Origin: Thiotrichaceae bacterium
GTDB lineage: Bacteria; Pseudomonadota; Gammaproteobacteria; SZUA-140
Assembly (NCBI GenBank): GCA_002401765.2
Contig: NVTY02000086.1
Coordinates: forward strand, 33,631-97,630
Direction: 5' to 3'
DNA: 64,000 nucleotides
Program-made: the position numbers and the translations under genes
The notes under the pieces: generated by a model
The model's database searches: none
What the model was told of the DNA's origin: nothing
Seen by the model: the letters and a program-made list of their open reading frames with translations, nothing else
In this document: positions 14,035 through 40,227 of the stretch, piece by piece
Layout of the letters: the number at the start of each line of letters is the position of its first letter
Numbering within the stretch: the first letter of the stretch is position 1

Positions 14035-14445
<411 letters not shown>

Positions 14446-14488
14446 TCATTCGATTGGTGCACTGGCAGGAATAACAAATTCTATTCTC

Positions 14489-14504: not shown

Positions 14505-14568
14505 AACACAAAAAATAAAATTAAAACAAATAGATAGAGAGAATGGCTGGCCATTTCAATTTCATCAC

Positions 14569-14616: not shown

Positions 14617-14732
14617 GTCGCAAGCGCACCAACAGATGAGGGATGAAATCTGCGGGAAATTGCGTACACTACAGGTTCATAACTAACAGCAGCCCACCCT
14701 AATTTACGGGCCATGGCTTAATGGGAAGAATC

Positions 14733-14978
14733 ATGATCGACGCTAAAACAGTAGAGGCGTTCGCCAGGCATATTTCAGATGCGCTACCGCAAGGCGCGCA
14801 GGTGCTACAGCAGGATATTGAAAAGAATGTGCGCGCCGTGGTCAGTAGCGGCTTTGAAAAGCTGGATCTGGTATCGCGCGAAGAGTTTGAGGTGCAGAGT
14901 GCCGTGTTAATGCGCACCCGTGAAAAATTAGAGTCGCTTGAAAAACAGGTCGCGGCACTCGAGGCCAACGCCCAATAG
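14733..14978 (+). CDS. ubiK: Ubiquinone biosynthesis accessory factor UbiK (BMFP coiled coil)
   Basis: 81 residues from the ATG at 14733, which follows GGGAAG; an in-frame ATG at 14721 would add four. The protein starts MIDAKTVEAFARHISDALPQG and ends in a heptad-patterned coiled coil (LMRTREKLESLEKQVAALEANA), as in YqiC/UbiK, which trimerises and assists UbiJ and the aerobic ubiquinone complex. It precedes yifB by 60 bp on the same strand; ubiK-yifB adjacency with glnK nearby is common in gammaproteobacteria. Confidence 0.9.
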   Translation: MIDAKTVEAFARHISDALPQGAQVLQQDIEKNVRAVVSSGFEKLDLVSREEFEVQSAVLMRTREKLESLEKQVAALEANAQ

Positions 14979-14988
14979 CATCATCATT

Positions 14989-15013
14989 AACCTGCCACAG
15001 GATGTGACAGGTT
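14989..15013 (+). terminator. Stem-loop between ubiK and yifB
   Basis: AACCTG-C-CACA, loop GGA, TGTG-A-CAGGTT forms a hairpin directly after ubiK. There is only a short T run, so it may attenuate rather than fully terminate before yifB. Confidence 0.5.
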
Positions 15014-15038
15014 TGACATTCAGCAATGGAGTGCAAAT

Positions 15039-16553
15039 ATGTCACTTGCCACCCTTTATAGTCGAGCCCAGGCCGGGGTTAACGCCCCGCTGGTAACTGT
15101 TGAAGTACATCTCGCCAACGGACTGCCCGCGCTATCAATCGTTGGGCTTCCTGAAACCGCAGTCAAAGAGAGCAAAGACCGCGTACGCGGGGCACTGATC
15201 AATAGCCATTTTGAATTTCCAGCACGGCGCATCACCATCAACCTGGCCCCGGCGGACCTGCCCAAAGATGGTGGGCGCTATGATCTTGCGATTGCACTTG
15301 GCATCCTGGCGGCCTCTGGGCAGATTCCCAGCCAGCAACTGGGTGATTATGAGTTTATCGGTGAGCTCGCCTTAAGCGGCGAACTGCGCGCCGTACGCGG
15401 GGTGCTACCCGTTTCAATGCAGGCATGCGCAAGCGGTCGCATCCTGATGGTGCCAATCGAAAACAGCAATGAGGCAGCGCTGGTTGAAGAGGCCACGGTG
15501 CTGGGCGCCCGCCACTTATTAGATGTCTGTGGCCATCTGCACGGTAATAACCGCCTTAAGCCCCATGTCTATATCAATAACGGCGCCATTGAAAACGACT
15601 ATCCTAATCTTTCCGATATCCGAGGCCAACACCATGCCAAACGTGCGCTGGAGATCTCCGCCGCTGGTGGCCATAGCTTATTGATGATTGGCCCACCCGG
15701 AACAGGTAAAAGCATGCTAGCGAGCCGCCTTCCCGGCATCCTACCTCGGATGAGCAAAAAAGAGGCGCTTGAATCAGCGGCAATCAATTCCATCAGCCAC
15801 AACGGCTTTATCCCCGCGACACTCAACCAACGCCCCTTTCGCAGCCCTCATCACACCGCCTCAGGAGTGGCGCTAGTCGGCGGCGGCAGCCAACCACGGC
15901 CCGGTGAAATTTCATTATCGCATAACGGCGTGATGTTTTTGGATGAACTACCCGAATTTGACCGGCGCGTATTAGAGGTGCTGCGTGAACCACTGGAATC
16001 AGGCAAGATCATCATCTCACGCGCGGCGCGTCAGGCAGAATTCCCCGCTCGATTTCAACTTATCGCGGCAATGAACCCATGCCCCTGCGGTTATCTGGGT
16101 GATAAAAACGGGCGCTGCCAGTGCAGCCATGAGCAGGTTCGGCGCTATCGAGCGCGTATTTCAGGGCCGCTCTTAGACCGTATCGATATGCATATTGAAG
16201 TGCCAGCAGTGCCTTTTGAAGAGTTAAAAACACCGCCAGATCGCTCCGAAGATTTAAGCATGCAAGCAAGAGAGCGGGTGCAAACTGCGCGTGATTGCCA
16301 GCTAGCGCGCTGCGGTAAAGCCAATCATGCAATGGGGATACGAGATATCGAAAATAGCTGCCAACTCAGCACAGAAAGCGCTCGCCTGCTAGAGCAGGCG
16401 AGCCAGCAACTAGGGCTTTCAGCGCGCGTCTATCACCGGATTTTAAAGGTTGCGCGTACCATTGCAGATTTAGCAGGTGTCGATGAGATCACCACACAAC
16501 ATATTAGTGAGGCAATCTCCTATCGCCGCCTTGATCGGCGAATGGCTAACTAG
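15039..16553 (+). CDS. comM: YifB/ComM family AAA+ ATPase (Mg-chelatase-like)
   Basis: 504 residues, full length. The N-terminal S5-like domain (VNAPLVTVEVHLANGLPALSIVGLPETAVKESKDRVR is its signature region) is followed by an AAA+ core with GPPGTGKSMLASRLP near residue 217, VMFLDELPEFDRRVLEVLREPLE (Walker B) and a Cys cluster (MNPCPCGYLGDKNGRCQCS), then a C-terminal helical domain. ComM is a helicase that extends heteroduplex formation in natural transformation; the protein is often present without competence. Its stop is followed at once by a 137-bp palindromic element. Confidence 0.93.
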   Translation: MSLATLYSRAQAGVNAPLVTVEVHLANGLPALSIVGLPETAVKESKDRVRGALINSHFEFPARRITINLAPADLPKDGGRYDLAIALGILAASGQIPSQQLGDYEFIGELALSGELRAVRGVLPVSMQACASGRILMVPIENSNEAALVEEATVLGARHLLDVCGHLHGNNRLKPHVYINNGAIENDYPNLSDIRGQHHAKRALEISAAGGHSLLMIGPPGTGKSMLASRLPGILPRMSKKEALESAAINSISHNGFIPATLNQRPFRSPHHTASGVALVGGGSQPRPGEISLSHNGVMFLDELPEFDRRVLEVLREPLESGKIIISRAARQAEFPARFQLIAAMNPCPCGYLGDKNGRCQCSHEQVRRYRARISGPLLDRIDMHIEVPAVPFEELKTPPDRSEDLSMQARERVQTARDCQLARCGKANHAMGIRDIENSCQLSTESARLLEQASQQLGLSARVYHRILKVARTIADLAGVDEITTQHISEAISYRRLDRRMAN

Positions 16554-25141: not shown

Positions 25142-25327
25142 ATGACTGATGAAATTTTAACCTTGAAAGAGGTTGCCAGCTATTTGAAATTAGCGGAAAA
25201 AACAGCGTACCGCCTAGCGTCTGATGGTCAACTAAAAGGCTTTAAGATAGGAGGGAGCTGGAGGTTTCGGAGAGACGAAATTGAAAGGCTAACCAAGGGT
25301 GAAAAGTCGAATATGAAAGCCAAGTGA
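25142..25327 (+). CDS. Excisionase-type helix-turn-helix DNA-binding protein
   Basis: 61 residues forming a MerR-like/HTH_17 winged helix: EILTLKEVASYLKLAEKTAY, then SDGQLKGFKIGGSWRFRRDE. Such small proteins act as excisionases or, when encoded at the head of defence and restriction clusters, as transcription regulators. There is no integrase in the window, so a regulatory role is more likely. It lies 4 bp before the helicase gene and leads the whole plus-strand cluster. Confidence 0.85.
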   Translation: MTDEILTLKEVASYLKLAEKTAYRLASDGQLKGFKIGGSWRFRRDEIERLTKGEKSNMKAK

Positions 25328-25331
25328 AGCT

Positions 25332-28300
25332 ATGGAAATTATTGACAATATAAATAACCTGCTAGGGGATAATATAAAGCAGGAGCTAAAAAAAGGCTCA
25401 AAGCTGAAAATCGCCGCATCGTGCTTTTCCATTTATGCATTTGAAGCATTAAAGGACGAATTGCAGAAGATCGAATCTTTAGAGTTCATTTTCACATCCC
25501 CCACGTTTGTTCCCGAAGAAACCGTTGATAAGATCAAAAAAGAACACCGTAAGTTCCACATTCCACGAGCCGAGAGGGAACGCAATTTCTACGGTAGTGA
25601 TTTTGAGATACAGCTAAAAAATAAATTGACCCAACGAGCGATTGCAAAAGAATGCGCTCAATGGATAAAGAGTAAAGCCCGCTTTAGATCAAATAGTGGC
25701 AAAGCCTCCATGCAACAATTTGCTTGCATAGAAAACGATAAAACCCCTCTCGGTCAGGATAGAAATTCTGCTTATCTCCCCCTTCACGGTTTTACTACTG
25801 TAGACCTTGGCTATCAACAGGGGGATGCAGTATCAAATATCATCACCAAGCTTGACGAACCAGAAAGTACGCAAGTCTATTTGAATCTGTTTAATCAAAT
25901 CTGGGATGATCCTGAAAAGATAGAAGATGTAACAGATCAATTATGTGACCACATTGCCAGTGTCTATAAGGAAAATCCGCCCGAACAAGTCTATTTCTTC
26001 ATGCTCTACAATATTTTCAATGAGTTCCTAGAAGACATTAACGAAGATGTACTCCCTAATGATCTTACGGGTTATCAAGACAGCCTGATTTGGAAAAAGC
26101 TCTACAATTTTCAAAAAGATGGGGCGACAGGGATTATCAACAAGCTTGAAACCTATAACGGTTGCATTCTGGCTGATAGTGTTGGTTTGGGTAAAACATT
26201 TACCGCCCTTGCCGTGGTTAAATATTACGAGTTACGAAATAAATCTGTCCTTGTCCTTTGCCCGAAAAAATTGGCAAATAACTGGCTGAACTACAATAGA
26301 AATCTGAAAACAAATATCTTCTCCAAAGACCGTTTTAACTATGACGTGCTATGTCATACCGACCTTCAACGAACCAGAGGTGAGTCTTTTGGTACACCCT
26401 TGGATAGAATAAATTGGGGAAACTATGATCTTATTGTGATCGATGAGTCACACAACTTTCGCAATAATGATGCCTTTAAGGATAAAGAAACCCGATACGA
26501 AAAATTGATGAACTCCGTTATCAAGGAGGGAGTGAAAACCAAGGTCTTGATGCTATCGGCAACGCCTGTCAATAATCGCTTCATGGATCTTCGCAATCAG
26601 CTTGCATTGGCCTACGAAGGCGATGCCTCAAACATGAATAATAAACTTCGCACAACCAAGGGCGTTGACGAGATATTCCGACAAGTGCAGGCTACATTCA
26701 ATGTTTGGGCAAAGCTTCCACCAGAAGAACGCACAACGGATGCCATACTAAAGGCATTGGACTTTGATTTTTTTGAGTTGCTAGATAGTGTAACTATCGC
26801 TAGGTCACGTAAGCACATTCAAACATTCTACGACACCACTGAGATAGGGAGCTTTCCAGAGCGTAGAAAACCCATCTCATATCACAGTCCTTTGACAAAC
26901 AGAACGGATGTCATGGGCTTCAACGATATTTTCAGGGAGCTGTCTTTACTAAAGTTATCCATCTACGCCCCTGTTAGTTATATCTTACCCAGTCGCATTG
27001 CAAAATATGAAGACCTCTATGACACAGAGGTGAGTGGCGGTAAGAGCAAGCTTCGCCAAGCTGATCGTGAGAGAAGCCTTCAAGCCCTGATGACGACCAA
27101 CTTGCTGAAAAGGCTGGAAAGCTCCGTTGAGTCATTTCGCATTACCTTAAATAAGCTGAAAACCAAGCATTCGGAGATGTTGTCAAAAATTGAGCTTTAT
27201 ACACAACGTGGCGAAGATAAAGGCGTGGCAGGCGATGTTATTGAAGACCGGGCGGCCTACTATGAAAATGCAGAACCCGATGATGACAATTTTTTGGAAA
27301 TGGAAGAGCTGGAATCCGAAGAGGATAGTACGGGCGGAAAAGTTCAAATCAAGTTATCCGATATGGACTTGCCATCATGGGAACATGACCTAAGAGTGGA
27401 CATTGCTATTGTCGATGCGCTACTTGTTGAAATGCAAAAAATAACACCTGACGATGATACCAAGCTCCAACATCTAAAAAATCAAATTGATGAAAAGATT
27501 GCCAATCCTATAAACCCAAACAATAAGAAGATACTTATTTTCACAGCCTTCGCTGATACCGCTAATTATCTCTACGATAATTTATCGGCAAGCCTAAAAG
27601 AAACGCAGGGCATTCATACAGGAAGGATAACAGGAAGTTCATCACCCCGATCAACCTTAGGGACTACAATCGCAAAAAGCTACGATTTTGAATCGCTACT
27701 GACACTGTTTTCCCCGCGCTCAAAAGAGAAAGATGTTGTCCTACCCAATGAACCAGACGAGCTGGATATTCTGATAGCAACGGATTGCATATCAGAAGGC
27801 CAAAACCTGCAAGATTGTGATTATGTGATTAACTACGATATTCACTGGAATCCAGTGCGGATTATTCAACGCTTTGGACGGATAGACCGTATTGGCTCTA
27901 TCAACACCACTATCCAGCTTATGAACTATTGGCCAGATATTTCCCTTGATGAATATATCAATCTTAAAGAGCGTGTTGAAAGCCGTATGGTGATTGCCGA
28001 TATGACGGCAACGGGTGATGACAATGTACTAAGCGCAAAAGCAAACGATATATCCTACCGCAAAGATCAATTAAAACGCCTTCAAGAAGAAGTGATTGAA
28101 ATGGAAGACCTCAAAACAGGGGTGTCAATTACCGACCTTGGTTTGAACGATTTTCGTATGGACTTGCTGGGCTATATTAAAGAAAACGGCGAACTATCCA
28201 ATATCCCTAATGGGTTGCACGCGGTTGTGCCTGCCGACCCCGATAAGGGCTTAAGCTCAGGGGTTATCTTTACGCTATGCAACCGTAACCATAGCGTTAA

Positions 28301-28667
28301 TATCAACCAGCACAATCGCCTGCACCCATACTACCTTGTCTATATTGGCCTTGATGGTGAAATTATCGCCGATCACAGCGAAATAAAAAGGCTTTTGGAC
28401 TTGGTAAGAAGCACCTGCAAAGGCCAGAGTAAACCGCTTGATGCAATATGCCGTCTGTTTAACCAAGAAACAGATGATGGCCGTGATATGAGCGTTTACT
28501 CCGACCTGCTAAAACAATCCATAGGCTCAATTATAGAGCTGAAAGAAGACAAGGACATAGACAGCCTCTTTAGTGGCGAGCGAACAACCGCGCTGATTGA
28601 GTCAGTGGCAGGCCTTGATGATTTTGAGTTAATTAACTTTCTTGTCATTCAAGATGGTGAGGCTTGA
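25332..28667 (+). CDS. SNF2-type DEAD/DEAH helicase with PLD-like N-terminal domain
   Basis: 1111 residues. The first 150 or so (KIAASCFSIYAFEALKDELQ, then LEFIFTSPTFV) resemble the PLD-like N-terminal domain seen on bacterial SNF2 helicases. The helicase core has ILADSVGLGKTFTALAVV near residue 279 (Walker A), LIVIDESHNFRN near 369 (DESH box), VLMLSATPVNNRFMDLRNQL near 408, and the second half motifs IATDCISEGQNLQDCDYVINYD and RIIQRFGRIDRIG near 845. A long acidic insert (NAEPDDDNFLEMEELESEED) splits the lobes. It probably translocates on duplex DNA in a defence or restriction complex. DUF4391 follows with overlapping stop/start. Confidence 0.9.
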   Translation: MEIIDNINNLLGDNIKQELKKGSKLKIAASCFSIYAFEALKDELQKIESLEFIFTSPTFVPEETVDKIKKEHRKFHIPRAERERNFYGSDFEIQLKNKLTQRAIAKECAQWIKSKARFRSNSGKASMQQFACIENDKTPLGQDRNSAYLPLHGFTTVDLGYQQGDAVSNIITKLDEPESTQVYLNLFNQIWDDPEKIEDVTDQLCDHIASVYKENPPEQVYFFMLYNIFNEFLEDINEDVLPNDLTGYQDSLIWKKLYNFQKDGATGIINKLETYNGCILADSVGLGKTFTALAVVKYYELRNKSVLVLCPKKLANNWLNYNRNLKTNIFSKDRFNYDVLCHTDLQRTRGESFGTPLDRINWGNYDLIVIDESHNFRNNDAFKDKETRYEKLMNSVIKEGVKTKVLMLSATPVNNRFMDLRNQLALAYEGDASNMNNKLRTTKGVDEIFRQVQATFNVWAKLPPEERTTDAILKALDFDFFELLDSVTIARSRKHIQTFYDTTEIGSFPERRKPISYHSPLTNRTDVMGFNDIFRELSLLKLSIYAPVSYILPSRIAKYEDLYDTEVSGGKSKLRQADRERSLQALMTTNLLKRLESSVESFRITLNKLKTKHSEMLSKIELYTQRGEDKGVAGDVIEDRAAYYENAEPDDDNFLEMEELESEEDSTGGKVQIKLSDMDLPSWEHDLRVDIAIVDALLVEMQKITPDDDTKLQHLKNQIDEKIANPINPNNKKILIFTAFADTANYLYDNLSASLKETQGIHTGRITGSSSPRSTLGTTIAKSYDFESLLTLFSPRSKEKDVVLPNEPDELDILIATDCISEGQNLQDCDYVINYDIHWNPVRIIQRFGRIDRIGSINTTIQLMNYWPDISLDEYINLKERVESRMVIADMTATGDDNVLSAKANDISYRKDQLKRLQEEVIEMEDLKTGVSITDLGLNDFRMDLLGYIKENGELSNIPNGLHAVVPADPDKGLSSGVIFTLCNRNHSVNINQHNRLHPYYLVYIGLDGEIIADHSEIKRLLDLVRSTCKGQSKPLDAICRLFNQETDDGRDMSVYSDLLKQSIGSIIELKEDKDIDSLFSGERTTALIESVAGLDDFELINFLVIQDGEA

Positions 28668-29344
28668 TGACGGCATTATTTGAGTACCCGAAAAATGCGG
28701 AGTTTGGTCGTATTGTTGCTAAAAGCAAAATATTTGAGCGTGTAAAACCTAACCGACAATTACAGGAGGCGTTTGCCTCGCAGGTTAAAAAGATAGTTTG
28801 GCGATATAAGCTTTCCCCAAAGACGATTAACCTCGCTGAAACGGACAAGCTTAAAGAAATAGAAATATTCGAGTTGCCATTGAAAACATCACTTAAAAAA
28901 GAGCAATTCGACACTAAAATTTTGCACTGTATTGATAAGGCTATCGGCCACCCAATAGTTTTTCACCTTACCCATGCAGACAGGATCAAGGTTGTTGCCA
29001 CATACAAGCGACCCAGTGAAGCAGATGCCAATAAATGGGTTGTTGATAACGAATATTTTGAAACAGATTGGTTGCCCGAAAAATCAGTGCGCCAAAATTT
29101 GCCTGTTGTGCTTAACCTGTCTGGCTTGTATGAAACTATATTGCGCGAACTTATACCACTGGACTCAAGGAAAGATGAAAGCTTGGATGCCCATATAGAG
29201 CGAATGGGGCAAGTCCTTGCCAAGCGTAGAGAATACGGAAAGCTGGAAACACGCATGAGTAAAGAAAAGCAATACAACCGAAAAGTTGAAATGAATGCAG
29301 GCTTGCGAAAATTGCAGACTGAAATAGAAAGATTAAAAGCATGA
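28667..29344 (+). CDS. DUF4391 domain protein
   Basis: 225 residues. I assign it to DUF4391 from its sequence style (LFEYPKNAEFGRIVAKSKIFE at the start, VHRIKVVATYK-like middle written here as DRIKVVATYKRP, and the C-terminal coiled coil YNRKVEMNAGLRKLQTEIERL) and from its place directly after an SNF2 helicase and before a type III methylase, where this domain is commonly found. The ATG overlaps the helicase stop (TGATG), so translation is coupled. Biochemical role is unknown. An alternate TTG lies three bases upstream. Confidence 0.75.
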   Translation: MTALFEYPKNAEFGRIVAKSKIFERVKPNRQLQEAFASQVKKIVWRYKLSPKTINLAETDKLKEIEIFELPLKTSLKKEQFDTKILHCIDKAIGHPIVFHLTHADRIKVVATYKRPSEADANKWVVDNEYFETDWLPEKSVRQNLPVVLNLSGLYETILRELIPLDSRKDESLDAHIERMGQVLAKRREYGKLETRMSKEKQYNRKVEMNAGLRKLQTEIERLKA

Positions 29345-29739
29345 ACCACGAAAGACACGAAAAAGAAAAAATACTGTATAAGGATGAATGTTATCGGATT
29401 CAGGGCGCTATTTTTGAGGTTTATCGTGAGATGGGCTGTGGGTTTTTGGAGGCGGTTTATCAGGAGTGTTTGGAGAAAGAGCTTTCTATGCGAGGGATTC
29501 CTTTTGTCAGCCAACAAGAGTTAAGCTTGGTTTTTAAGGGTGAGAAGTTAAATCAAAAATACAGTCCGGATTTAATTTGTGATGGCAAAATAATACTTGA
29601 GTTGAAAGCAGTTAAAGAAATAGCAAAAGAGCATGAAGCGCAGTTGCACAATTACTTGAAAGCTTCCGGGCTGCGGCTGGGCTTACTGGTAAACTTTGGG
29701 CATTATCCCAAGGTACAAATTAAACGAATTATTTTATGA
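29341..29739 (+). CDS. GxxExxY family PD-(D/E)XK nuclease-like protein
   Basis: 132 residues. The family name motif is present as GCGFLEAVYQECLEKEL, and the nuclease-like core reads YSPDLICDGKIILELKAVKEI, that is PD, then E-x-K, the PD-(D/E)XK arrangement. The ATG overlaps the DUF4391 stop. The first codons (MNHERHEKE) are written by an 18-base sequence that also forms the arms of a hairpin at 31773-31856, so a repeat supplies the protein's N-terminus. Activity and role are unknown; these genes often travel with such hairpins and may have inserted into the operon. Confidence 0.85.
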   Translation: MNHERHEKEKILYKDECYRIQGAIFEVYREMGCGFLEAVYQECLEKELSMRGIPFVSQQELSLVFKGEKLNQKYSPDLICDGKIILELKAVKEIAKEHEAQLHNYLKASGLRLGLLVNFGHYPKVQIKRIIL

Positions 29740-29760
29740 ACCACGGACAAAGATATATGA

Positions 29761-29841
29761 CCACGAAATACACAAAAAGCACGAAAAAAGATAAAAAGAG
29801 CTTTTTGTTTTTAACTTTCGAGTATTTCGTGTGTTTCGTGG
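29761..29841. repeat. Inverted repeat between GxxExxY and the methylase gene
   Basis: CCACGAAATACAC at 29761-29773 pairs with GTGTGTTTCGTGG at 29829-29841 (12 of 13 matching). The inner part is A-rich then T-rich (AAAAAGC / GCTTTTT). A member of the same family as the hairpin at 31773-31856. Confidence 0.8.
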
Positions 29842-29855
29842 TTAGAGGAATTTAA

Positions 29856-31757
29856 ATGGAAAAGCTAGACTTGAAAGCACCTAATTTCACCAGTGAGAAT
29901 ATCGAAAAAATAGCCGATCTATTTCCAAATTGCGTCACTGAAAAGAGAAGTGAAAGAGGCGAAGTTGAGCGGTCAATTGATTTTGATACCTTGCGCCAAG
30001 AATTATCGGCCTCGATAGTCGAGGGTTCGCAGGAGCGTTATAGCCTCAATTGGCCGGGCAAGCGTGAGGCATTAGTTACTGCCAATAGCCCCATTTCCAA
30101 AACACTGCGTCCTTGCTATGAAGAGAGCGTGGACTTTGATAACACCAAGAATATTTTTATTGAGGGCGATAATCTTGATGCTCTAAAACTTCTACAAGAA
30201 ACCTATCTCAGTAAAATCAAAATGATCTATATAGACCCGCCCTATAATACGGGTAATGATTTTGTTTATAACGATAATTTTACAGCAGATAGAGAAGAGT
30301 ATGACGAAGCCTCTGGTCAGCGTGATGAAGAGGGTGGCCGTCTTGTAGCTAATCCTGATAGTAATGGGCGCTTTCATTCTGACTGGCTTTCTATGATATA
30401 CCCGCGCTTGAAATTGGCACGGAATTTATTGCGTGAAGATGGAATAGTTTTTATTTCAATAGACGATAATGAATATACAAATACGAAAAAGATTTGCGAT
30501 GAGATCTTCGGAGAAGATCGCTTTGTTGGTACTGCGGCATGGAAAAATAAATATGGTGCGGGAGCTAAAACCAAAGGTTTTATTGATGTGCACGAATATA
30601 TTCTTTGTTATTCCAAAAGTTCGATAGAAAACATTTCTTCAAAGTTATCTGATGAGCAAACAAAAAGTTATAACAAAAAAGACGATAAGTTTGATTTAAG
30701 AGGGGGGTATTTCACGCAACCTCTCATGACAACAAGTATGGATGACAGGCCAAATCTACAATATGATATAGAGTATAAAGGGGAAGTTATTAAGCCTATT
30801 AAGCAATGGGTGTGGGGAAAAGAACGCTTATTAAATGCTATTGAGAGTAATGAGGTAGTATTTAGTAAAAAAACTGATGGCTCATATAGCGTTAGATATA
30901 AAGTTTATTTGATAGGAGAGAATGGAGATAAGAGAAAAGGCAAACCAATGTCACTTCTAAATGGGCCGTTTAATCAAGAAGGCACCAAAGAGGTTGAACA
31001 ACTCATTGGGCCTGCGATCTTTAGTTTTCCTAAACCCTCGGCGTTAATAGCGCATTTCCTCTCTTTTGATGTAAATGACAAATCTGAAAAAGACGGCCTT
31101 TATTTGGATTTCTTTGCTGGTTCTGGGACGACTGCTCATGCTGTTATGAAGTTGAACGCTGATGATGGGGGGCAGCGAAAATGTATTTCTATCCAACTAT
31201 CGGAAGAATGTGATCCAAAAACCGTAGCATTTAAGAAAGGCTATAAAAATATCGCTGAAATATCCAAAGAACGAATTCGTCGTGCGGGCAAGAAAGTAAA
31301 GGAAGATAATGCGGGCAAAGAAGGTATAGAAAACCTCGACACAGGTTTCCGTGTTTTTAAAATTGATAGTACCAATATGGTAGATGTGCACGTCTCCCCC
31401 GATGATGCCAGCCCTGAACTATTTGACACCCACATTGAAAATATCAAAAAAGATAGAACGTCAGAAGACCTGCTGTTTCAAGTGCTACTAGATTGGGGCG
31501 TGGATTTATCACTTCCCATTATCCGTGAAGAGATTGCTGGCAAGGAAGTCTTCTCTGTTGATGACAATGCACTGGTTGCCTGCTTTGATGAAGGTATCAA
31601 TGAAGAATTTGTCACCCAACTTGCGATAAGAAAACCCCTGCGTGTTGTCTTTCGTGATGATGGTTTTGGGTCGGGTAAGGATGGAGACAGCGTTAAAATC
31701 AATGTAGAGCAAGTCTTTAAATTAAAATCGCCAGCAACGGACATCAAGGTTATTTAG
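29856..31757 (+). CDS. Type III restriction-modification DNA methyltransferase (Mod)
   Basis: 633 residues, normal for Mod. It should methylate adenine N6 at the recognition site. The order of motifs is beta-class: IYIDPPYNTGNDFVYND near residue 126 (motif IV, DPPY) comes before LDFFAGSGTTAHAVMKLN near 417 (motif I, FxGxG). The variable central part (residues 250-370) would be the target-recognition domain. The C-terminus SPDDASPELFDTHIENIKKD and LLFQVLLDWGVDLSLPI is typical of type III Mod. Ribosome-binding site AGAGGAA. A hairpin repeat separates it from the upstream gene and another from the downstream Fic gene. Confidence 0.94.
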   Translation: MEKLDLKAPNFTSENIEKIADLFPNCVTEKRSERGEVERSIDFDTLRQELSASIVEGSQERYSLNWPGKREALVTANSPISKTLRPCYEESVDFDNTKNIFIEGDNLDALKLLQETYLSKIKMIYIDPPYNTGNDFVYNDNFTADREEYDEASGQRDEEGGRLVANPDSNGRFHSDWLSMIYPRLKLARNLLREDGIVFISIDDNEYTNTKKICDEIFGEDRFVGTAAWKNKYGAGAKTKGFIDVHEYILCYSKSSIENISSKLSDEQTKSYNKKDDKFDLRGGYFTQPLMTTSMDDRPNLQYDIEYKGEVIKPIKQWVWGKERLLNAIESNEVVFSKKTDGSYSVRYKVYLIGENGDKRKGKPMSLLNGPFNQEGTKEVEQLIGPAIFSFPKPSALIAHFLSFDVNDKSEKDGLYLDFFAGSGTTAHAVMKLNADDGGQRKCISIQLSEECDPKTVAFKKGYKNIAEISKERIRRAGKKVKEDNAGKEGIENLDTGFRVFKIDSTNMVDVHVSPDDASPELFDTHIENIKKDRTSEDLLFQVLLDWGVDLSLPIIREEIAGKEVFSVDDNALVACFDEGINEEFVTQLAIRKPLRVVFRDDGFGSGKDGDSVKINVEQVFKLKSPATDIKVI

Positions 31758-31772
31758 GTGAATAACATATTA

Positions 31773-31856
31773 ACCACGAAAGACACGAAATACTCGAAAA
31801 TTAAAAACAAAAAAAGTCTTTTGACCATCTTTCGTGCTTTTCGTGTCTTTCGTGGT
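31773..31856. repeat. Hairpin with perfect 18-bp inverted arms
   Basis: ACCACGAAAGACACGAAA at 31773-31790 and its exact complement at 31839-31856, with an A-rich left and T-rich right inner part. The same 18-mer starts the GxxExxY gene (29345-29362). It lies between Mod and Fic and could terminate or modulate transcription. Confidence 0.9.
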
Positions 31857-31876
31857 AAAAAAATAATGGAGTCTAA

Positions 31877-32992
31877 ATGAAGCCTTACATTCCAAATGAA
31901 TTACCTTTGCAGGGCTTGGATTATCAAGCCTTATTCAATGTGGTTGGTAATGCCAATGCAGAGCTGGCACGATATGATGGTTTGTTACAGGGCATCCCAA
32001 ACCCAGAAGTGATGCTGTCACCCTTAACAACGCAAGAGGCCGTATTATCGTCAAAAATTGAAGGTACTCAAGCAACGGTTGATGAGGTGCTAGAGCATGA
32101 AGCGGGAATCATCGCGCAAGGTGAAAAAGAAAAAGATATTCAAGGAATTTTGAATTATCGCCATGCCTTATTTCAATCACGCGAGCATTTAAAAGACTAC
32201 CCAATACGGCTGGGCTTTATTTGTGAGTTGCATAAAATATTGTTAGATAGTGTGCGAGGTAAAGACAAGACACCCGGTGAATTCCGTAAGGATCAAAATT
32301 GGATTGGTCGAGCAGGTTGCGCAATAGACGAAGCCAGCTTTGTTCCTCCTTCACCTCTCGTGTTAGATGAGTTTCTGAAAAAATGGGAAACTTATATGAG
32401 TTTTGATGATACAGATTTTTTGCTACAAATAGCCGTCATTCATGCTTATTTTGAATTATTACATCCCTTTAAAGACGGCAACGGTCGTATCGGGCGTTTA
32501 TTAATCCCACTCTTCTTGTATCAGAAAAAAGCATTATCCCAGCCGATGTTTTATTTAAGTGAATATTTAGAGCTGCATAGGGAGGAATATTATCAGCGGC
32601 TAAAAGCGATTTCTGAAGACGGGGACTGGAATGGTTGGATATTGTTCTTTTTAAAAGCCGTAGCCGTGCAAGCTAAGCAAAACAGTACCCGCGTTCGGTC
32701 TATTATGGATTTATACGAAGAGATTAAAACGCAAATACACGAAATAACCCATTCCCAATATTCTATCTATTTATTGGATGCTATTTTTAGCAAGCCCATT
32801 TTTCAAGTGTCTGATTTGGTTAAAACGCTGAACAAAGAATGTGGTATCCATGAAAAGACAACGCCAGAACTATTACGAAAATTAAAGGATGCTAATATTT
32901 TACGTGAGCTACAGCCTGCTAGAGGTCGAAAATCGGCGGTTCTTTATTTTCCGCGTTTAATTAATCGGGCTGAGGGGAGAGAAATAACATAA
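31877..32992 (+). CDS. Fic-family protein with N-terminal inhibitory helix and C-terminal winged helix
   Basis: 371 residues. The catalytic loop is LLHPFKDGNGRIGRLLIPLF near residue 195, a perfect HPFxDGNGRxGR, so it is probably an active AMP-transferase (Fic domain). The self-inhibitory motif (S/T)xxxE(G/N) is present as SSKIEG near residue 58, making it a class II Fic. The last 80 residues (HSQYSIYLLDAIFSKPIFQVSDL, then TPELLRKLKDANILREL) look like a winged helix. RBS GGAGTC is seven bases from the ATG. It interrupts the usual mod-res order; such Fic genes are often mobile cargo. Confidence 0.93.
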   Translation: MKPYIPNELPLQGLDYQALFNVVGNANAELARYDGLLQGIPNPEVMLSPLTTQEAVLSSKIEGTQATVDEVLEHEAGIIAQGEKEKDIQGILNYRHALFQSREHLKDYPIRLGFICELHKILLDSVRGKDKTPGEFRKDQNWIGRAGCAIDEASFVPPSPLVLDEFLKKWETYMSFDDTDFLLQIAVIHAYFELLHPFKDGNGRIGRLLIPLFLYQKKALSQPMFYLSEYLELHREEYYQRLKAISEDGDWNGWILFFLKAVAVQAKQNSTRVRSIMDLYEEIKTQIHEITHSQYSIYLLDAIFSKPIFQVSDLVKTLNKECGIHEKTTPELLRKLKDANILRELQPARGRKSAVLYFPRLINRAEGREIT

Positions 32993-33464
32993 CAATTTGT
33001 GGAGTATATTTGTCGATTTAGACTCCTCAAGTTGGTTTGAGGAGTCTCGAGGCTCCTCAAGTTTGTTTGTGGAGTGCATTTCGCCGTTAACGCTCCTCCA
33101 GAATACAAAGTAGTTTGCTTGATGGTTGTTTGATTGAGAGGCTGTATTTAACGAGGGGATATTTGTAAGTCATTGAAAAATAACGAGTAATAATTATTTT
33201 TTTGTTTGATATTGTATGAGATATGCAATAAAAACAGCTCCTGAGTGGAGGCTTACAGTTGAGTCAAAAAAATGAGTAAGATTGAGAAAGAATGAGTAAG
33301 AACGCAGGATAAAAGACACGTATATTGTTGATTTATATAGAAATATATATCTTTAGTGGTTGATAAAATGAGTAAGATCAAGAGTGATTGCAGAAAGAAA
33401 GTAATCGTAACTAATTGTATTTAAAGTATATTTAACTATTTTTTGTGCAGAAAGAAAGGGTCAT
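32993..33464. other. Repeat-rich, A+T-rich gap between Fic and Res
   Basis: No gene in 470 bp. Two 35-bp similar units, each with GTGGAGT near one end and a CTCCTC motif near the other, lie at 32996-33030 and 33066-33100; between them GACTCCTCAA pairs perfectly with TTGAGGAGTC (33021-33046). Further on, AATGAGTAAG occurs at 33271 and 33291 and ATGAGTAAGA again at 33368. This may be an operator region, a Fic-associated repeat, or the scar of an insertion. The Res promoter must lie here if Res is transcribed separately. Confidence 0.55.
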
Positions 33465-36400
33465 ATGAAGAGCTTAAAATTTAAACATCTACCTTATCAA
33501 ACCGAGGCTATGGAAGCCGTGGTGGACTGTTTTGCGGGGCAACCTAAGCTTGCCACGTTATCGTATCGTATCGATCCTGGCAGAGAAGCTAAAAAAGGCG
33601 AAACAATAAAAGTAGATATGTTGTCGGATGGTTTTAAAAACACCGATCTTATGCTCACGCATGAGCAAGTGTTCACCAATATCGAAAATGTACAGCAAAA
33701 GTAAAACTTGCCCATCTCTGATGCGCTGGTAAAAACAAAATCCTGCGCTATCAATCTTGATACCGAAATGGAAACAGGCACGGGTAAAACATACTGTTAT
33801 ATCAAAACCATGTTTGAAATGAATAAACGCTATGGCTGGAACAAGTTCATCGTTGTTGTTCCAAGCATTGCTATTCGTGAAGGCGTGTATCAATCACTCA
33901 AGGGCATGGCCGATCATTTTTTGGAGGAGTACGGTACAAGGGCTAAGACATTTATCTATAACTCGAAGTCACTGCATGAGATTGAAAACTACTCTTCGGA
34001 TGCTGGTATCAATGTCATGATTATTAATGTGCAAGCCTTTAATGCACGGGGCAAGGATGCTCGTCGTATTTACGAAGAGCTGGATGATTTTCAATCTCGA
34101 CGGCCTATTGATGTTATTAAAGCTAATCGTCCTATCATGATTTTGGATGAACCCCAGAAAATGGAAGGTAAGAAAAGTACAGAGGCATTGGCTGAGTTTA
34201 ATCCTTTGTTCACTTTGCGTTATTCCGCTACCCACAAAACAGAACATAATAAAATTCATCGTCTTGATGCGTTAGATGCTTATAACCAGAAGCTGGTTAA
34301 GAAAATTGCAGTGAGGGGAATATCAGTAAAAGGGTTAAGTGGTACAAATGCCTATCTCTATCTGCAATCCATTGAAGTTTCCGCAACCAAGCCACCCGTG
34401 GCGCGCGTTGAGTTTGAAGTTAAGCAAAAAAATGGCATTAAGCGCATTGTCAGAAAAATTGGCAAAGGGATTAACTTGTTCGATGAGTCTCAGGGCTTGG
34501 AACAGTACAAAGAATTTGTGGTATCTGATATTGATGCGCTTAAAGACACGTTGAGCTTTACCAACGGTGTCGAAATGATGGTGGGTGACGCATTAGGTGA
34601 TGTCAATGAAGAGGCTTTACGGCGTATTCAAATCAGAGAAACAATTAAGGCGCATTTTGATAAGGAACGCGAACTCTTTCATCAGGGTATAAAGGTTCTC
34701 TCTCTTTTCTTTATTGATGAAGTAGCCAAGTACCGAAATTACGCTAAATCTATTGATGAGGTTGAAAATATAGATCAAATACTGCATGTAGACCTTTTAG
34801 ATACGAATGGCGAATATGCAAAGGTATTTGAAGAAGAGTATAACCTATATCTAAATGAAGTCTTGACGCTAGACGATACAGAGTACAATCAGTACCTAAA
34901 AAATATTCCAGTTGAAAAGACTCATAATGGATATTTTGCGGTTGATAAAAAGAAAAATTATGTTAATCCCAGTATTCAAAAGTCAGGCGAAACCAAAGGT
35001 GAGTCCAATGACGTTGATGCCTATGACTTAATACTGAGAGATAAAGAAAGGCTTCTATCTTTTGAGGAGCCTGTACGGTTTATCTTCTCGCACTCGGCTT
35101 TACGAGAGGGCTGGGATAATCCAAATGTATTTACGATCTGTGCTTTGAAGCATAGCGATAACACTATTTCACGACGACAGGAAGTGGGTCGTGGTCTGCG
35201 CCTTGCGGTAAACCAAAACGGTGACCGCATGGATAATCCATTGAACGTACATCAACTCAATGTACTGACAGTGGTTGCCAGTGAAAGCTATAAAGATTTT
35301 GTAAAAGCCCTGCAAACGGATATTGGAAACTCACTTTCTGCGCGACCAAAATCAGCCGATGAAGACTATTTCAAAGGTAAGACGATAAAAACAGAAGATG
35401 GAACGCTGAAAGTTGACGATAAGATGGCGAAACAAATTTACCGCTATTTGATTAAAAATGACTATACAGATGATAGCGATATGATTGTTGATACCTATCA
35501 TGAAGCCAAGCGAGATGGAACGCTGGCAGACTTTAGCGATGATCTGAAACCCTATACCGAAGAAATACATAAATTGATTAGCGGTGTGTTTAGTGCATCC
35601 TTATTGCCAAGTATTGACGATGGGCGCAAGGCAAAAGAAAATCCCCTGAACGCAAACTTTAGTAAGAAAGAGTTTCAGCAACTTTGGAACAAAATCAATA
35701 GGAAAGCCGTGTACACGGTGAGCTTTGATTCAGGTGAGCTTATTGAAAAATGTGTCAAGGCACTCAATGAAAAAGGCAGACTAAAAATATCACCTTTGCA
35801 ATATATCATTGAATCTGGCGCACAGGTTGAAGCCTCCACGTATGAAAAGATTAAAGACGGCACAGCTTTTAAAGTTTCGGAAACAAAAACAGAAAAATAT
35901 AACAGCTCAATTAAATCATCGGTTAAATACAATTTAATTGGTCAAATATCTGATGAGACTAAACTAACCCGACGAACGATAGCGAGTATTTTAAAGCAAA
36001 TTAATACAGCCGTTTTTAGCCTATACCGAAGCAACCCAGAAGATTTTATTGCCAAGGTGTCGGAACTAATTAATGAGCAAAAGGCAACCGCCATTATTGA
36101 GCATTTATCCTATGATCCAGTGGATGAGGTTTATGAGAGTGATATTTTTACCGCTGAAAAGCCAAAGGATGATTTTAGTAAGGCGATAAAGGTAGATCAT
36201 CATATTTACGATTATGTGTTTACCGATTCAAAGGTTGAAACAAATTTTGTGAAAGAATTAGATGTTAGCTCTGAGGTGGTTGTATATGCAAAACTGCCAA
36301 GAGGGTTTTCTATACCAACGCCAGTAGGTAACTATAACCCTGATTGGGCTATTTCCTTTAAAGAAGGCACGATGAAGCATGTCTATTTTGTGGCTGAAAC

Positions 36401-36551
36401 GAAAGGCTCAATGAGTTCTTTGCAGTTAAAGGAAATTGAAAACATTAAGATAAAATGCGCCAAAAAGTTTTTCAAAAAAATCACCTCGGATCAGGTGGTC
36501 TACGATGTAGTCAATAGCTACGAAAAGCTTATGGAAGTCGTGCAAGGCTAG
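33465..36551 (+). pseudogene. Type III restriction endonuclease subunit (Res), interrupted by one in-frame stop
   Basis: A TAA at 33702-33704 splits one continuous frame: 79 codons before it (LKFKHLPYQTEAMEAVVDCF, ending ENVQQK) and 947 after it ([11 protein letters not shown] onward). Both halves are in the same frame, 243 bp apart, and together resemble full-length Res (about 1028 codons). After the stop come [13 protein letters not shown] (Walker A), [12 protein letters not shown] (DEPQ box), [18 protein letters not shown] and [14 protein letters not shown], and a C-terminal PD-(D/E)XK site (NPDWAISF, then AETKGSM). A TTG at 33708 could restart translation. A single C-to-T change (CAA to TAA) would explain the stop. 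It is either inactive, read through, or restarted. Confidence 0.88.
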
Positions 36552-36617
36552 GGGTTAAGAATATTTTAGTGAAATATCAATATATTGGGTAGTTAACAGC
36601 GGAAAGGAATTATTTCA

Positions 36618-38624
36618 ATGAGTAACGTAAATATTAGGAGAGCCGTAGAAAACATCAGGTCTGGCACTAATGTTTATACGCCTCTTGTTGAGGTGATTGT
36701 AAACGCCATTCAAGCTATCGAAAGTAACGCCCAAAGTGATGGAGAGATAACGATAGTTGTAAAACGATCCACCCAAATGGAAATGGAGGATTCGTTACCT
36801 GCTGTTGAAGATTTTGAGGTTAGGGATAATGGCATTGGCTTCAACGAAGCTAATAGGGAGTCTTTTGATACCCTCTACTCTGACCAGAAAATTAGTGAAG
36901 GGGGCAAGGGGTTTGGTCGCTTTACCTGCCTAAAATATTTTGACGATTTGAGGATAGAAAGTGTCTTTGAGGATAGCGGAAAGTTTCAAAAACGTAGCTT
37001 TTCTATGGGAAAGTCTAACGACATCATTGTAAATGAAAATATTGATGAAACAGATGAAGTAAACACAGGAACAGTTGTCTACTTGGATAGGTACAAAAAT
37101 GATAAGTCTTTTGACAAGAAGCTGGTCACTATTTCTAGGAAGTTGGTCGAGAAACTTTTGCCGTATTTTATTACTGATGATTATTCCTGTCCCAAGATAG
37201 AAATTGTAGAAGCTGACAATAGCAACCCCATAATTTTGAATGACTATGTAAGTAACGAAATTTCAGGTGCTATACAGGAAATGGCCATTGATGATAAAGA
37301 GTTTGTTTTAGGTAGAAAACCTAATGAGCATGATTTCAACGTCAGAGTGTTCAAATTTTATTCGCCCAAAAGCCAGTCAAGCAAAGTTAGCCTTGTAGCG
37401 CATAAGCGCGAGGTGACAGAGACATCTATCCATAACTATATCCCTGAGTTCATCGATGAGTTTTATGATAAAAATCCTGAGGGTGACGCTTCCAGTGGCA
37501 GAAACTACATCATAAAAGCATATGTTTTCGGTGATTACCTAGATACTCATGTTGCGTATGAGCGGAGTGGTTTTGAGTTTCCGAAGGATAGTAATTTATA
37601 TTCTGATGTGGCTCAGAATGAAATTGAAGTTAAAGCCTCTGAAATAGCCAAGCAAGCCGTAGGCGAGGATATAACTGCCCGCCAAGAAAAGAAAGTTGAG
37701 CGTATTAAATCCTATGTAGATGAGGAAGCTCCTTGGCATCGCGATATACTCAAGGATATTGACCTTTCAACAATGCCCTACAACCCGTCCTCCGAAGAGA
37801 TAGAGGCGCGGTTACAGAAGGAAAAGCACGAGCAGGAAGTATCAATAAGACGAGAAGTCACTGCCTTGCTAGAAGATAGTAATACCGACAATCTTAAAGA
37901 GAACGTAGGAGAGATCGTTAGTAAAATATCTGAAAATGGAAAAAATGATCTGACGCACTATATTGCATCAAGGCGACATGTTTTAAATATTTTTAGAAAA
38001 AGTCTAGAACTTGACCCTGATGGGAAATATTCATCGGAAGGGGTGGTTCACGATATTATTTTCCCCCGCCACGGTGACACTGAAAAAACGCCTTTCTCGG
38101 ATCACAATTTATGGATAATTGACGAGCGTTTAAATTTCACCAACTATGTATCTTCCGATAACCCTTTGAATGGTGGTAACTCGGAACGCCCTGATTTATT
38201 AGCTTATGATAAAAGAGTGCTATTCAGGGGCGATAATGAAGCCAGTAATCCCGTTACTATATTTGAATTTAAAAAACTCCAGAGAGATAATTTTGTTAAT
38301 CCGTCATCTAAAGAAGACCCTGTTCAGCAAATCGTTCGATATGTAAACAGCATTAAGGAGGGAGATTTTAAAACTCCCCAAGGACGAAAAATGTTAGTAG
38401 CAGAAAACACACCTTTCTATGGGTATGTTGTTTGTGACCTGACAAAAAAAGTTGAAAAATGGCTCAAGACAGAAAAGAATTTTAAACCGATGCCTGATTC
38501 GCTCGGATGGTTTTGGTGGCATGAAAATATAAATTTATATGTAGAGGTTATCAGTTGGGACAAAACTCTTAAAGATGCTGATATGAGGAACAAAATATTC
38601 TTCCATAAACTTGGGATTGCGTAG
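36618..38624 (+). CDS. GHKL-type ATPase with C-terminal PD-(D/E)XK-like nuclease domain
   Basis: 668 residues. The N-terminal third is a GHKL/HATPase domain: EVIVNAIQAIESNA (N-box near residue 28), RDNGIGFNEANRESF (G1 box near 70) and SEGGKGFGRFTCLKYF (G2 near 95), as in MutL, Hsp90 and MORC proteins. A middle helical region (RQEKKVERIKSY, LQKEKHEQEVSIRREVTALL) may be coiled coil. The C-terminal part has ERPDLLAYDKRVLFRG then TIFEFKKLQRD near residue 547, an arrangement that fits PD-(D/E)XK nucleases. RBS GGAAAGGAA. It closes the island cluster. I know GHKL proteins in bacterial defence loci, but not this fusion by name. Confidence 0.8.
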   Translation: MSNVNIRRAVENIRSGTNVYTPLVEVIVNAIQAIESNAQSDGEITIVVKRSTQMEMEDSLPAVEDFEVRDNGIGFNEANRESFDTLYSDQKISEGGKGFGRFTCLKYFDDLRIESVFEDSGKFQKRSFSMGKSNDIIVNENIDETDEVNTGTVVYLDRYKNDKSFDKKLVTISRKLVEKLLPYFITDDYSCPKIEIVEADNSNPIILNDYVSNEISGAIQEMAIDDKEFVLGRKPNEHDFNVRVFKFYSPKSQSSKVSLVAHKREVTETSIHNYIPEFIDEFYDKNPEGDASSGRNYIIKAYVFGDYLDTHVAYERSGFEFPKDSNLYSDVAQNEIEVKASEIAKQAVGEDITARQEKKVERIKSYVDEEAPWHRDILKDIDLSTMPYNPSSEEIEARLQKEKHEQEVSIRREVTALLEDSNTDNLKENVGEIVSKISENGKNDLTHYIASRRHVLNIFRKSLELDPDGKYSSEGVVHDIIFPRHGDTEKTPFSDHNLWIIDERLNFTNYVSSDNPLNGGNSERPDLLAYDKRVLFRGDNEASNPVTIFEFKKLQRDNFVNPSSKEDPVQQIVRYVNSIKEGDFKTPQGRKMLVAENTPFYGYVVCDLTKKVEKWLKTEKNFKPMPDSLGWFWWHENINLYVEVISWDKTLKDADMRNKIFFHKLGIA

Positions 38625-38634
38625 CGGGAAGCGC

Positions 38635-38670
38635 GTAGGGCAGATTAGCGTAGCGTAATCTGCCGCATGT
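38635..38670 (+). repeat. REP palindrome, left copy
   Basis: 36 bp, GTAGGGCAGATTAGCGTAGC and onward, with an internal palindrome. It matches the reverse complement of 39041-39076 with three differences, so the two copies flank the RAYT remnant in inverted orientation. Confidence 0.85.
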
Positions 38671-38711
38671 TATACTAGCAACCGACCACTTAGTTAAAGG
38701 ATTAACTAAAA

Positions 38712-39039
38712 ACACCCAATTATCGACGCAATCATCTCGAAGGTGGTTGCTACTTTTTCACGGTCAACCTTCTTGAGCGCAAGCACAACCCCTTGCTTGT
38801 GAGTAATATCGATCTGCTGCGAGAGGTTACAAAGAAAGTCCGACAACGCCATCCTTTATGATGAAGATGACTATGCGGCGTGCATGGACTATTTGCACTA
38901 TAACCCAGTGAAGCACGGCTATGTGGATCGTGTTGGCGATTGGCCTCATTCGACGTTCCACTCCCTGGTGAACAAAGAAATTTATCCAAAGAATTGGGCA
39001 GCATCGGAGTTGACGCTCTCGGTAGGAGAGTCGGTGTAA
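38712..39039 (+). pseudogene. REP-associated tyrosine transposase (RAYT), internally deleted
   Basis: Two pieces of one RAYT are visible in different frames. The first reads PNYRRNHLEGGCYFFTVNLL, then [20 protein letters not shown] (38715-38855), the second [20 protein letters not shown], then [20 protein letters not shown] to the stop at 39037-39039. The roughly 80 central residues, including the HUH motif region (DHLH-type), are missing, and the codon where ATG should be is ACA (38712-38714). RAYTs are domesticated IS200-like transposases that mobilise REP sequences. REP copies lie on both sides. The copy cannot be active. Confidence 0.88.
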
Positions 39040-39040
39040 T

Positions 39041-39076
39041 ACATGCGGCGGATTACGCTTCGCTAATCCGCCCTAC
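39041..39076 (-). repeat. REP palindrome, right copy
   Basis: 36 bp beginning ACATGCGGCGGATTACGC two bases after the RAYT stop. It is the inverted partner of the copy at 38635-38670 (33 of 36 bases). Confidence 0.85.
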
Positions 39077-39144: not shown

Positions 39145-39825
39145 TCATTTTAACAACGTCTTCCTATAAACATCTGTAATCCCAACCCCATCCCAAACAT
39201 ACGATAGATGCGCCCCTTGTTTTGGAATGCTCACCGCTGGTGGGCGCAGTGCCGCGATGCACTCCCCACCAGCATCTCTAACAGAACGATAAACAATGCC
39301 CCATGAGTGGATCGTTTTCATCGCTTGCCCAAAGGCTTGGCCTGCCGTCCAGTCATCTGGGTCGTGCAGGTGCTCAAAACTACCACCCCGAACATCATGC
39401 ATCGGTTTGATGACTTTACCAATGTACACCCGCATGGAGATCTCTCCGGCATCTTCATTGGTATAAGAAAGAAAGCGGGCGCGGTGGTATTGGGTCTCTT
39501 CAATCGCCGTTTCAACTGTTTTACTGGCGTAGTAGATACCGTAGCTGCCATCGCTAAAACGGCTAGGGCTGTCCACGCTGGCGTGGGTAAATGCCGCCAT
39601 CACGGGCGAGGCACCGGGGCCGGTGATACGATCTTCTGCCGGAACCAGTGCAATGTCGCCTGCTTCATCGCGCAGTCTGTCATTGGTGAGTGATTCGAGG
39701 TGGTAGAGTTCATCCATTAACTCTGGATCAACGAGCTGTTCAAAAAAATTGATGGGTGGATATTCGGAAGAGATAACCCGGTATTGGTGTGACCAGTCGA
39801 GTTCCGTGACTGGTGGGTGATTCAC
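39145..39825 (-). CDS. RES-domain toxin
   Basis: 226 residues. The RES signature residues are seen: HQYRVISSEYPP, SRFSDGSYGIYYASKTVETAIEETQYHR and GIVYRSVRDAGGE. RES toxins degrade NAD+ (phosphorolysis) or modify nucleotide enzymes by ADP-ribosylation. The GTG start follows the antitoxin stop with no gap (TAA then GTG), so the pair is translated together. It is a little longer than the 150-180 residues common for RES, with extra N-terminal sequence. I cannot tell which reaction it performs. Confidence 0.9.
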   Translation of the reverse strand: MNHPPVTELDWSHQYRVISSEYPPINFFEQLVDPELMDELYHLESLTNDRLRDEAGDIALVPAEDRITGPGASPVMAAFTHASVDSPSRFSDGSYGIYYASKTVETAIEETQYHRARFLSYTNEDAGEISMRVYIGKVIKPMHDVRGGSFEHLHDPDDWTAGQAFGQAMKTIHSWGIVYRSVRDAGGECIAALRPPAVSIPKQGAHLSYVWDGVGITDVYRKTLLK

Positions 39826-40227
39826 TTACAGCCCTCGCTGCGCATCAAGATAGCGCCGCACATCGGCCAGGTCGACAATGCTGCCAGCGAGCATCCTTTC
39901 TAGTGCACTCTGATTATTAAATGCGGGCGCGGCATTGGGTTGTCGCACCCATTCATCTGCGGCTCGAGGGGAGGGGAGCAGTATGTTTAGGGCCTTGTAA
40001 ATACCGAGCAGGTAGCTGATGCGCTCCAGTGCATCCCGGCTCATACGGGCAGCAGATTTTTCGGCCTTCCATTTATAGAAGGTTGATTCGGGCGGCGCCC
40101 CTAGCAGAGTGCGTTCTTCGGCAACAGAGAGTTTCCAGTGGGCAGACAAGTTGAAGAATGCCTGCAAGGCGGCACTGGCCACTCGTTTTGGGTCATGCTG
40201 AGTTTGGTGTTGGGCTGCTGTTACCAT
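39826..40227 (-). CDS. Xre/MbcA/ParS antitoxin (DUF2384-type)
   Basis: 133 residues. An N-terminal Xre-like HTH (LSVAEERTLLGAPPESTFYKWK) is followed by the MbcA/ParS/Xre toxin-binding region (LERISYLLGIYKALNILLPS, then EWVRQPNAAPAFNNQSALERMLAGSIVDLADVRRYLD). This pairs with RES toxins and usually autoregulates the operon. It precedes the RES gene with 0 bp between. The start at 40227 lies in a likely operator region. Confidence 0.93.
   Translation of the reverse strand: MVTAAQHQTQHDPKRVASAALQAFFNLSAHWKLSVAEERTLLGAPPESTFYKWKAEKSAARMSRDALERISYLLGIYKALNILLPSPRAADEWVRQPNAAPAFNNQSALERMLAGSIVDLADVRRYLDAQRGL

Follow-up and report, generated by a model that had tools for sequence, protein, structure and literature searches.

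The window analyzed here is a stretch of 64,000 nucleotides from an assembly of 3.39 Mb in 88 contigs, and open reading frame calls and translations place eight genes, all on the plus strand, at its positions 25142–38624. Gene identities were assigned from Pfam, PADLOC, and NCBIfam profile matches. At the head lies an HTH regulator of the HTH_17/excisionase family (25142–25327; PF12728, 56 bits; TIGR01764, 43 bits with a cutoff of 28.8), which is also MAD1-like (NF047737 MAD1, 70 bits, under the cutoff of 80). It is followed by a SNF2 helicase (25332–28667; SNF2-rel_dom/Helicase_C in Pfam), a DUF4391 protein with a TTG start (28664–29344; PF14335, 172.6 bits), a GxxExxY PD-(D/E)XK protein (29341–29739; PF13366; TIGR04256, 147.7 bits), the type III DNA methyltransferase Mod (29856–31757; PF01555; MTase_III, 734 bits over 1–633), a Fic protein of the SoFic type (31877–32992; PF02661/PF13784; SoFic, 383 bits), res in two pieces (33465–33704 and 33708–36551), and a GHKL ATPase with a C-terminal PD-(D/E)XK-like nuclease domain (36618–38624; PF02518, 28.6 bits with a cutoff of 26.4). 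SNF2, DUF4391, Mod, and Res are, in this order, the four core genes of the analyses below, and the GxxExxY, Fic (in the Mod–Res slot), and GHKL (3' of Res) genes are treated as their cargo.

An earlier note on this DNA had described eight plus-strand genes, richer in A+T than their flanks and headed by an excisionase-type regulator, and our analyses agree: the G+C content is 38–43% in the cluster versus 47–54% in the flanks (17 to 25 kb and 39 to 55 kb), with another drop to 44% at ∼57 kb. The overlapping or short joins that it reported apply to the front of the cluster, where the HTH and SNF2 genes are 4 bases apart and SNF2/DUF4391 and DUF4391/GxxExxY overlap by 4 bases, but the later gaps are wider (GxxExxY–Mod, 116 bases; Mod–Fic, 119; Fic–Res, 472; Res–GHKL, 66). 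The left flank contains ALAD (hemB), a DUF47/PhoU-like protein, a phosphate transporter, and shikimate dehydrogenase, and the right flank a repeat-bounded stretch and a RES–Xre toxin–antitoxin pair. The former lies directly 3' of the GHKL gene (38635–39076), where a 41-base inverted repeat (88%) encloses 360 bases that presumably resemble the tail of a REP-associated transposase; the latter, a RES toxin with an Xre/MbcA antitoxin (39145–40227, minus strand), stands at the right edge of the island. Within the Fic–Res gap, positions 32996–33101 hold repeated, partly palindromic CTCCTCAAG-type units (families D7 and D10).

The two pieces of res share a reading frame and are separated by one stop at 33702–33704, which is codon 80 of the gene. 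The upstream piece, 79 codons followed by the stop, matches positions 2–72 of the REase_III profile, and the downstream piece (PF04851 and PF19778; REase_III, 1028 bits) carries the helicase and PD-(D/E)XK endonuclease domains; against the EcoP15I Res structure 4zcf_C, the window Res aligns over 17–928 (E = 4.8e-69). The assignment of Mod and Res to type III restriction-modification in the earlier note is thus borne out by the profile scores, but Res is not the single open gene that it was taken for, the stop having been missed. Close relatives encode Res without an internal stop (L124, 1017 aa; L125, 1011 aa), and the Mod, SNF2, and DUF4391 frames of the window are open although res is broken. 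Given the in-frame stop after codon 79, restriction by the window copy is predicted to be off, and it probably is so unless the stop codon was introduced by an assembly error or can be bypassed; methylation would then likely be the sole working activity left. Another close relative, L126, has a decayed SNF2 and a split Res, and with the stop in the window, decay of the operon has been seen more than once.

Using an alignment of seven SNF2 proteins as the query, we scanned public genomes and confirmed at least 557 relatives among 590 matched stretches. The best 80 of these form our locus set and, as the nearest of the confirmed relatives, lean towards window-like loci. The order SNF2, DUF4391, Mod, and Res on one strand was found in 71 of the 80, and eight of the remaining nine reach a contig end no more than 583 bases past the last core match. 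The ninth, L059, has only a fragment of Mod, with 2.8 kb still left to the end of the fetched flank; at 13279–15441, this locus encodes a 720-residue protein with DUF4391 at the N terminus and no Pfam match over the rest. SNF2 and DUF4391 matches are at most 110 bases apart in 68 of the 78 loci having both. The conserved order spans at least nine phyla or candidate divisions, the core-locus Res rows coming from Pseudomonadota, Thermodesulfobacteriota, Acidobacteriota, Planctomycetota, Verrucomicrobiota, Spirochaetota, Actinomycetota, Bacillota, and the candidate division FCPU426.

All four genes are also found on named plasmids of Methylotuvimicrobium alcaliphilum 20Z, E. coli, E. asburiae, A. 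baumannii, Phaeobacter porticola, and Aeromonas media, and among the matches listed, compared by eye, 24 of the 25 plasmid records for Res recur among the 30 for SNF2, with similar E. coli plasmids making up more than half of the shared records. A near match to the L003 locus is present in 10 of 5426 E. coli genomes, plasmid-borne in 10 of 11 places, and in 8 of the 10 rows, the annotation under the match names a WYL or BrxR regulator. On an A. veronii plasmid (L004), Mod and Res occur without SNF2 and DUF4391 and the sister locus L013 has SNF2, indicating that Mod–Res can exist without SNF2. The core order, judged by position, was recovered in 47 of 76 IMG/VR loci; SNF2 stood alone in 14, of which 10 end within 1.4 kb of SNF2 and four (L243, L246, L250, and L259) belong to the methylase-fused family described below. 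Permuted arrangements were seen as well: L137 keeps all four genes in the order Mod–Res–SNF2–DUF4391, and L260 has SNF2–DUF4391 preceded by a Res that the locus end truncates. In L241 (5858–12114), SNF2 and Res overlap by a single base and neither Mod nor DUF4391 was matched in the vicinity, which may be a further rearrangement of the core operon.

We also approached the association from the other genes. Searching 398 genomes of the phylum for DUF4391 gave matches in 23, and we fetched 20 stretches representing 21 of the 26 match rows, the window itself and L129, already in the sample, being among the other five. All four core genes were present in 14 of the 20 stretches, and five were cut by contig ends (L171, L173, L175, L180, and L186), including one in which the SNF2 match stops before a RhuM match, 170 bases from the contig end (L171). 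The exception, L176, has DUF4391 at the contig start, and the 9 kb that follow contain no match to Mod or Res. Starting from Res, 26 of 369 genomes of the class, that of the window included, had a match, and 20 stretches were fetched from 19. SNF2 was found in eight of these, one of them decayed (L126); L136 has weak SNF2 fragments only, six have no SNF2 match (L128, L132, L135, L140, L141, and L143), and five are cut off (L124, L125, L127, L131, and L138). The link to SNF2 is weaker from the Res side than from the DUF4391 side. In a midpoint-rooted tree built from 98 Res proteins, of which 84 have SNF2 and 14 do not (6 of these cut by contig ends), the presence of SNF2 changed 8 times in comparison with 13.3 in shuffles, none of the 500 being as low, although the clustering is partly by design as most SNF2 rows were collected through SNF2. 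The Res proteins of L140, L141, and L143 have very long branches and lie apart from the remaining 95.

The best PADLOC match of the window SNF2 is C3a139 (HKD+Snf2; 433 bits over 2–1106), but the motif HxKxxxxD occurs within the first 245 residues in none of 39 aligned SNF2 sequences and HxK alone in six. The protein is also related to DrmD and further defense helicases; as the HKD residues are missing, it is probably a motor and not a nuclease. The earlier note had counted the helicase with DUF4391 and the GHKL protein among extra effectors; for SNF2, a role as nuclease effector is unlikely. DUF4391 is named once, in a table, in a literature of 5.39 million papers, and its structure model has a mean pLDDT of 95.9. 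A clue to its role comes from four IMG/VR loci (L243, L246, L250, and L259), in which a more distant SNF2 (39–40% identity in the best segment) is followed by an Eco57I/type IIG methylase of 1200–1560 residues. A KilA-N protein lies between the two in L250, and an SMC-like ATPase is also present in L243 and L259. All three type IIG methylases scanned have a DUF4391 Pfam match near the N terminus, below the cutoff, and a profile–profile comparison of DUF4391 with the four N termini gave E = 3.7e-5, as a single comparison, and a probability of 71%. We regard these loci as a candidate sister system, for which we found no name, and the apparent fusion of a DUF4391-like domain to a methylase is our best clue to a contact between DUF4391 and the methylase.

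To quantify joint divergence, we correlated pairwise distances among the 67 loci in which each of the four genes is full-length, using 999 permutations and leaving the host phylogeny in. The correlation was 0.948 for SNF2–Res, 0.865 for SNF2–DUF4391, and 0.835 for DUF4391–Res, that of whole Mod with the other core proteins being 0.585–0.670 (each p 0.001). The correlation of DUF4391 with Res fell to 0.096 once SNF2 was held fixed. Mod itself is heterogeneous: its C terminus follows SNF2 (0.811), Res (0.806), and DUF4391 (0.701), its N-terminal core gave 0.601 with SNF2, and the middle, target-recognition (TRD) region, with a mean identity of 22%, gave −0.13 to −0.14. Among the four whole proteins, SNF2 is the most conserved (mean identity 69%) and DUF4391 the least (44%). 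We read SNF2, DUF4391, Res, and the C terminus of Mod as parts of what may be one machine, with specificity apparently exchanged freely. From the joint divergence and the conserved order, SNF2 and DUF4391 are most likely extra type III subunits.

The remaining genes behave differently. One or more same-strand frames of at least 85 residues separate core genes in 40 of the 71 complete loci, the occupied slots being Mod–Res (35), DUF4391–Mod (11), and SNF2–DUF4391 (7). With clusters named through representatives and some small frames possibly spurious, the cargo comprises Schlafen AlbA_2 proteins with HATPase_c_4 (16, one a fragment), RhuM (5), 23S-IVP (5), Bro-N (4, one short), YhcG (3), GmrSD (2, not clustered), and one each of UvrD, DUF2130, SIR2_2 with HerA, AAA_21 with DUF4276, and DUF3800; several large cargo frames have no clear Pfam match. 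Fic occupies the Mod–Res slot in 1 of the 80 loci, and a fragment does so in L039. The Fic of L014 is 86% identical to that of the window and in the same slot; in L124, with a Res that beyond the stop shares 92% identity with the window Res, a Schlafen-type protein takes the place that Fic has in the window and L014. The window Fic carries HPFKDGNGR, which we take to be its motif. At L132 (10133–15108), a Fic 71% identical to that of the window lies directly before Res, with a PAS protein upstream and no Mod detected.

GxxExxY is present in 2 of the 80 loci, in the same slot as in the window (L088) and between Mod and Res (L081). Its first codons in the window lie within a repeat copy (29345–29362), and inverted repeat pairs of one family, found by a repeat search, follow GxxExxY (29760–29844) and mod (31771–31859). 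Allowing at most two mismatches, the repeat ACCACGAAAGACACGAAA has five copies in the 3.39-Mb assembly, all within 29345–31859, at the first codons of GxxExxY and in the hairpins 3' of GxxExxY and 3' of mod; among 265 fetched loci, an exact copy was found only in L163, which is the window's own genome. The repeat positions suggest that GxxExxY may have entered as a repeat-bounded cassette.

The GHKL protein had been called a GHKL-nuclease in the earlier note, rightly so: in 15 aligned sequences including that of the window, the GHKL motif residues N29, D70, G72, and G74 are invariant, as are D526, E550, K552, and Q571 of the PD-(D/E)XK-like C terminus. A GHKL gene 3' of Res was found in none of the 80 genome loci; L014 has one upstream on the other strand, and L265 has a relative with 31% identity 3' of Res. 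Closer relatives on plasmids adjoin other genes, and in L005–L009, neither Mod nor Res was matched next to GHKL. On a Celeribacter plasmid (L005, 8677–16004), Fic, an Eco57I-type methylase, and the GHKL nuclease stand in a row, so that the nuclease may be a general restriction accessory. Since their slots are filled otherwise or are empty elsewhere, GxxExxY, Fic, and GHKL are best seen as cargo, and they are likely swappable side-effectors. The neighborhood search across genomes that the earlier note had proposed therefore upholds the core order, not a fixed place for these three, and of its expanded restriction-type system, SNF2 and DUF4391 stand as real additions, though the eight genes do not make up a single fixed system.

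The cluster core is a genuine type III restriction-modification variant that is widespread, carries two additional conserved genes, and has slots for cargo. In functional terms, we think it probable, judging from conservation and codivergence, that SNF2–DUF4391–Mod–Res would act as a four-subunit type III enzyme with a second ATP-driven DNA motor, the cargo genes being swappable. Under the proposed mechanism, Mod would read the target site and methylate self DNA, while the SNF2–DUF4391 pair would dock on Res and the C terminus of Mod, DUF4391 serving as an adaptor that links motor and methylase. By translocating along DNA or clearing it, the pair would license Res to cleave phage or plasmid DNA that lacks methylation, and the side-effectors would act once restriction is overrun.

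Defense genes cluster in islands, and SNF2–DUF4391 could be an independent two-gene defense system that is often found beside type III restriction-modification. We hold this to be unlikely: in the 80 loci and in the 20 stretches fetched through DUF4391, a pair lacking Mod–Res was explained by contig ends except in L059 and L176, the linkage stays where the order is permuted (L137), and SNF2 and Res diverge in close parallel, although independence would suit the type III loci with no SNF2 match (L004, L128, L132, L135, L140, L141, and L143) and the pairing of the related SNF2 with type IIG methylases instead. We give little credence to the idea that the pair serves not restriction but modification or regulation, for instance by loading Mod or by clearing DNA so that it can be methylated. 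The DUF4391-like domain fused to a methylase in the related type IIG family and the open Mod, SNF2, and DUF4391 frames beside a broken res are in its favor, but SNF2 tracks Res more closely than it does either the N-terminal core or the C terminus of Mod. That the whole set is a defense island of chance neighbors, the alternative raised in the earlier note, is very improbable: for the core, it is refuted by the order conserved in 71 of 80 loci across at least nine phyla or candidate divisions, and it fits only the cargo, with GHKL lacking Mod and Res in L005–L009, GxxExxY in 2 of 80 loci, and Fic in 1 of 80.

The four-subunit reading may extend further. Tentatively, SNF2 and DUF4391, the latter possibly a new fold, could be a portable motor–adaptor module that couples to type III Mod–Res or, when fused, to type IIG methylases, making large restriction machines whose operon slots take exchangeable anti-phage effectors. 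If a widespread clade of type III enzymes keeps two further genes, many of the annotated enzymes would have been studied with half of their parts missing. The four-gene reading would also give DUF4391 a testable function, and the fixed cargo slots are a place to look for new anti-phage effectors.

Several known systems resemble parts of the cluster. C3a139 of PADLOC, whose name presumably refers to accessory clusters of type III CRISPR, models one protein family and not an operon such as the one here. The earlier note was right to set BREX aside, as no PglZ or BrxC appears in the nine cluster frames among the Pfam, PADLOC, and NCBIfam matches listed. For MADS, the regulator scores 70 of the 80 bits required for MAD1, and no other mad row was among the PADLOC matches listed for the window genes. 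The SNF2 protein is distantly related to DrmD of DISARM (144 bits with a cutoff of 610), but the Pfam, PADLOC, and NCBIfam matches listed include no DrmB, and DrmA only as a weak match to the same SNF2 protein (63 bits). The Hma system, described in the available part of PMC8565338 as a helicase, an m5C methylase, and an ATPase, likewise combines a SNF2-type helicase with a methylase; here, however, SNF2 scores 94 bits for HmaA versus 433 for C3a139, the methylase belongs to the type III Mod family, Res is present, and neither HmaB nor HmaC is among the PADLOC matches listed (for Mod, the best 25 of 28). GHKL ATPases beside helicases, including type III-like ones, methylases, and nucleases are reported in the accessible text of PMC2292703, and the MORC/paraMORC proteins treated there share with ours the GHKL ATPase motifs, a restriction-type nuclease domain, and restriction-operon neighbors. 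In our loci, GHKL is optional cargo, and the likeness is at the level of GHKL ATPases.

The four-gene set is not described in the portions available of PMC10853773, PMC12839542, PMC2292703, PMC10059834, PMC12255303, PMC8565338, PMC12458937, and PMC7784981. Our literature search found no paper describing SNF2–DUF4391–Mod–Res, and we found no named system that matches it, in line with the earlier note, which knew of none with the full composition. Descriptions of type III restriction-modification usually give it two genes, mod and res; its cleavage needs two inversely oriented asymmetric sites. The cluster shares Mod (PF01555, 112 bits, with a DPPY motif, besides the MTase_III match) and a Res consisting of an SF2 helicase and a C-terminal PD-(D/E)XK endonuclease; the relatives L140, L141, and L143, with their very long Res branches, are type III loci with no SNF2 or DUF4391 match. 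What differs is the addition of SNF2 and DUF4391, and because these are kept in 71 of the 80 loci, we file the system as a type III variant.
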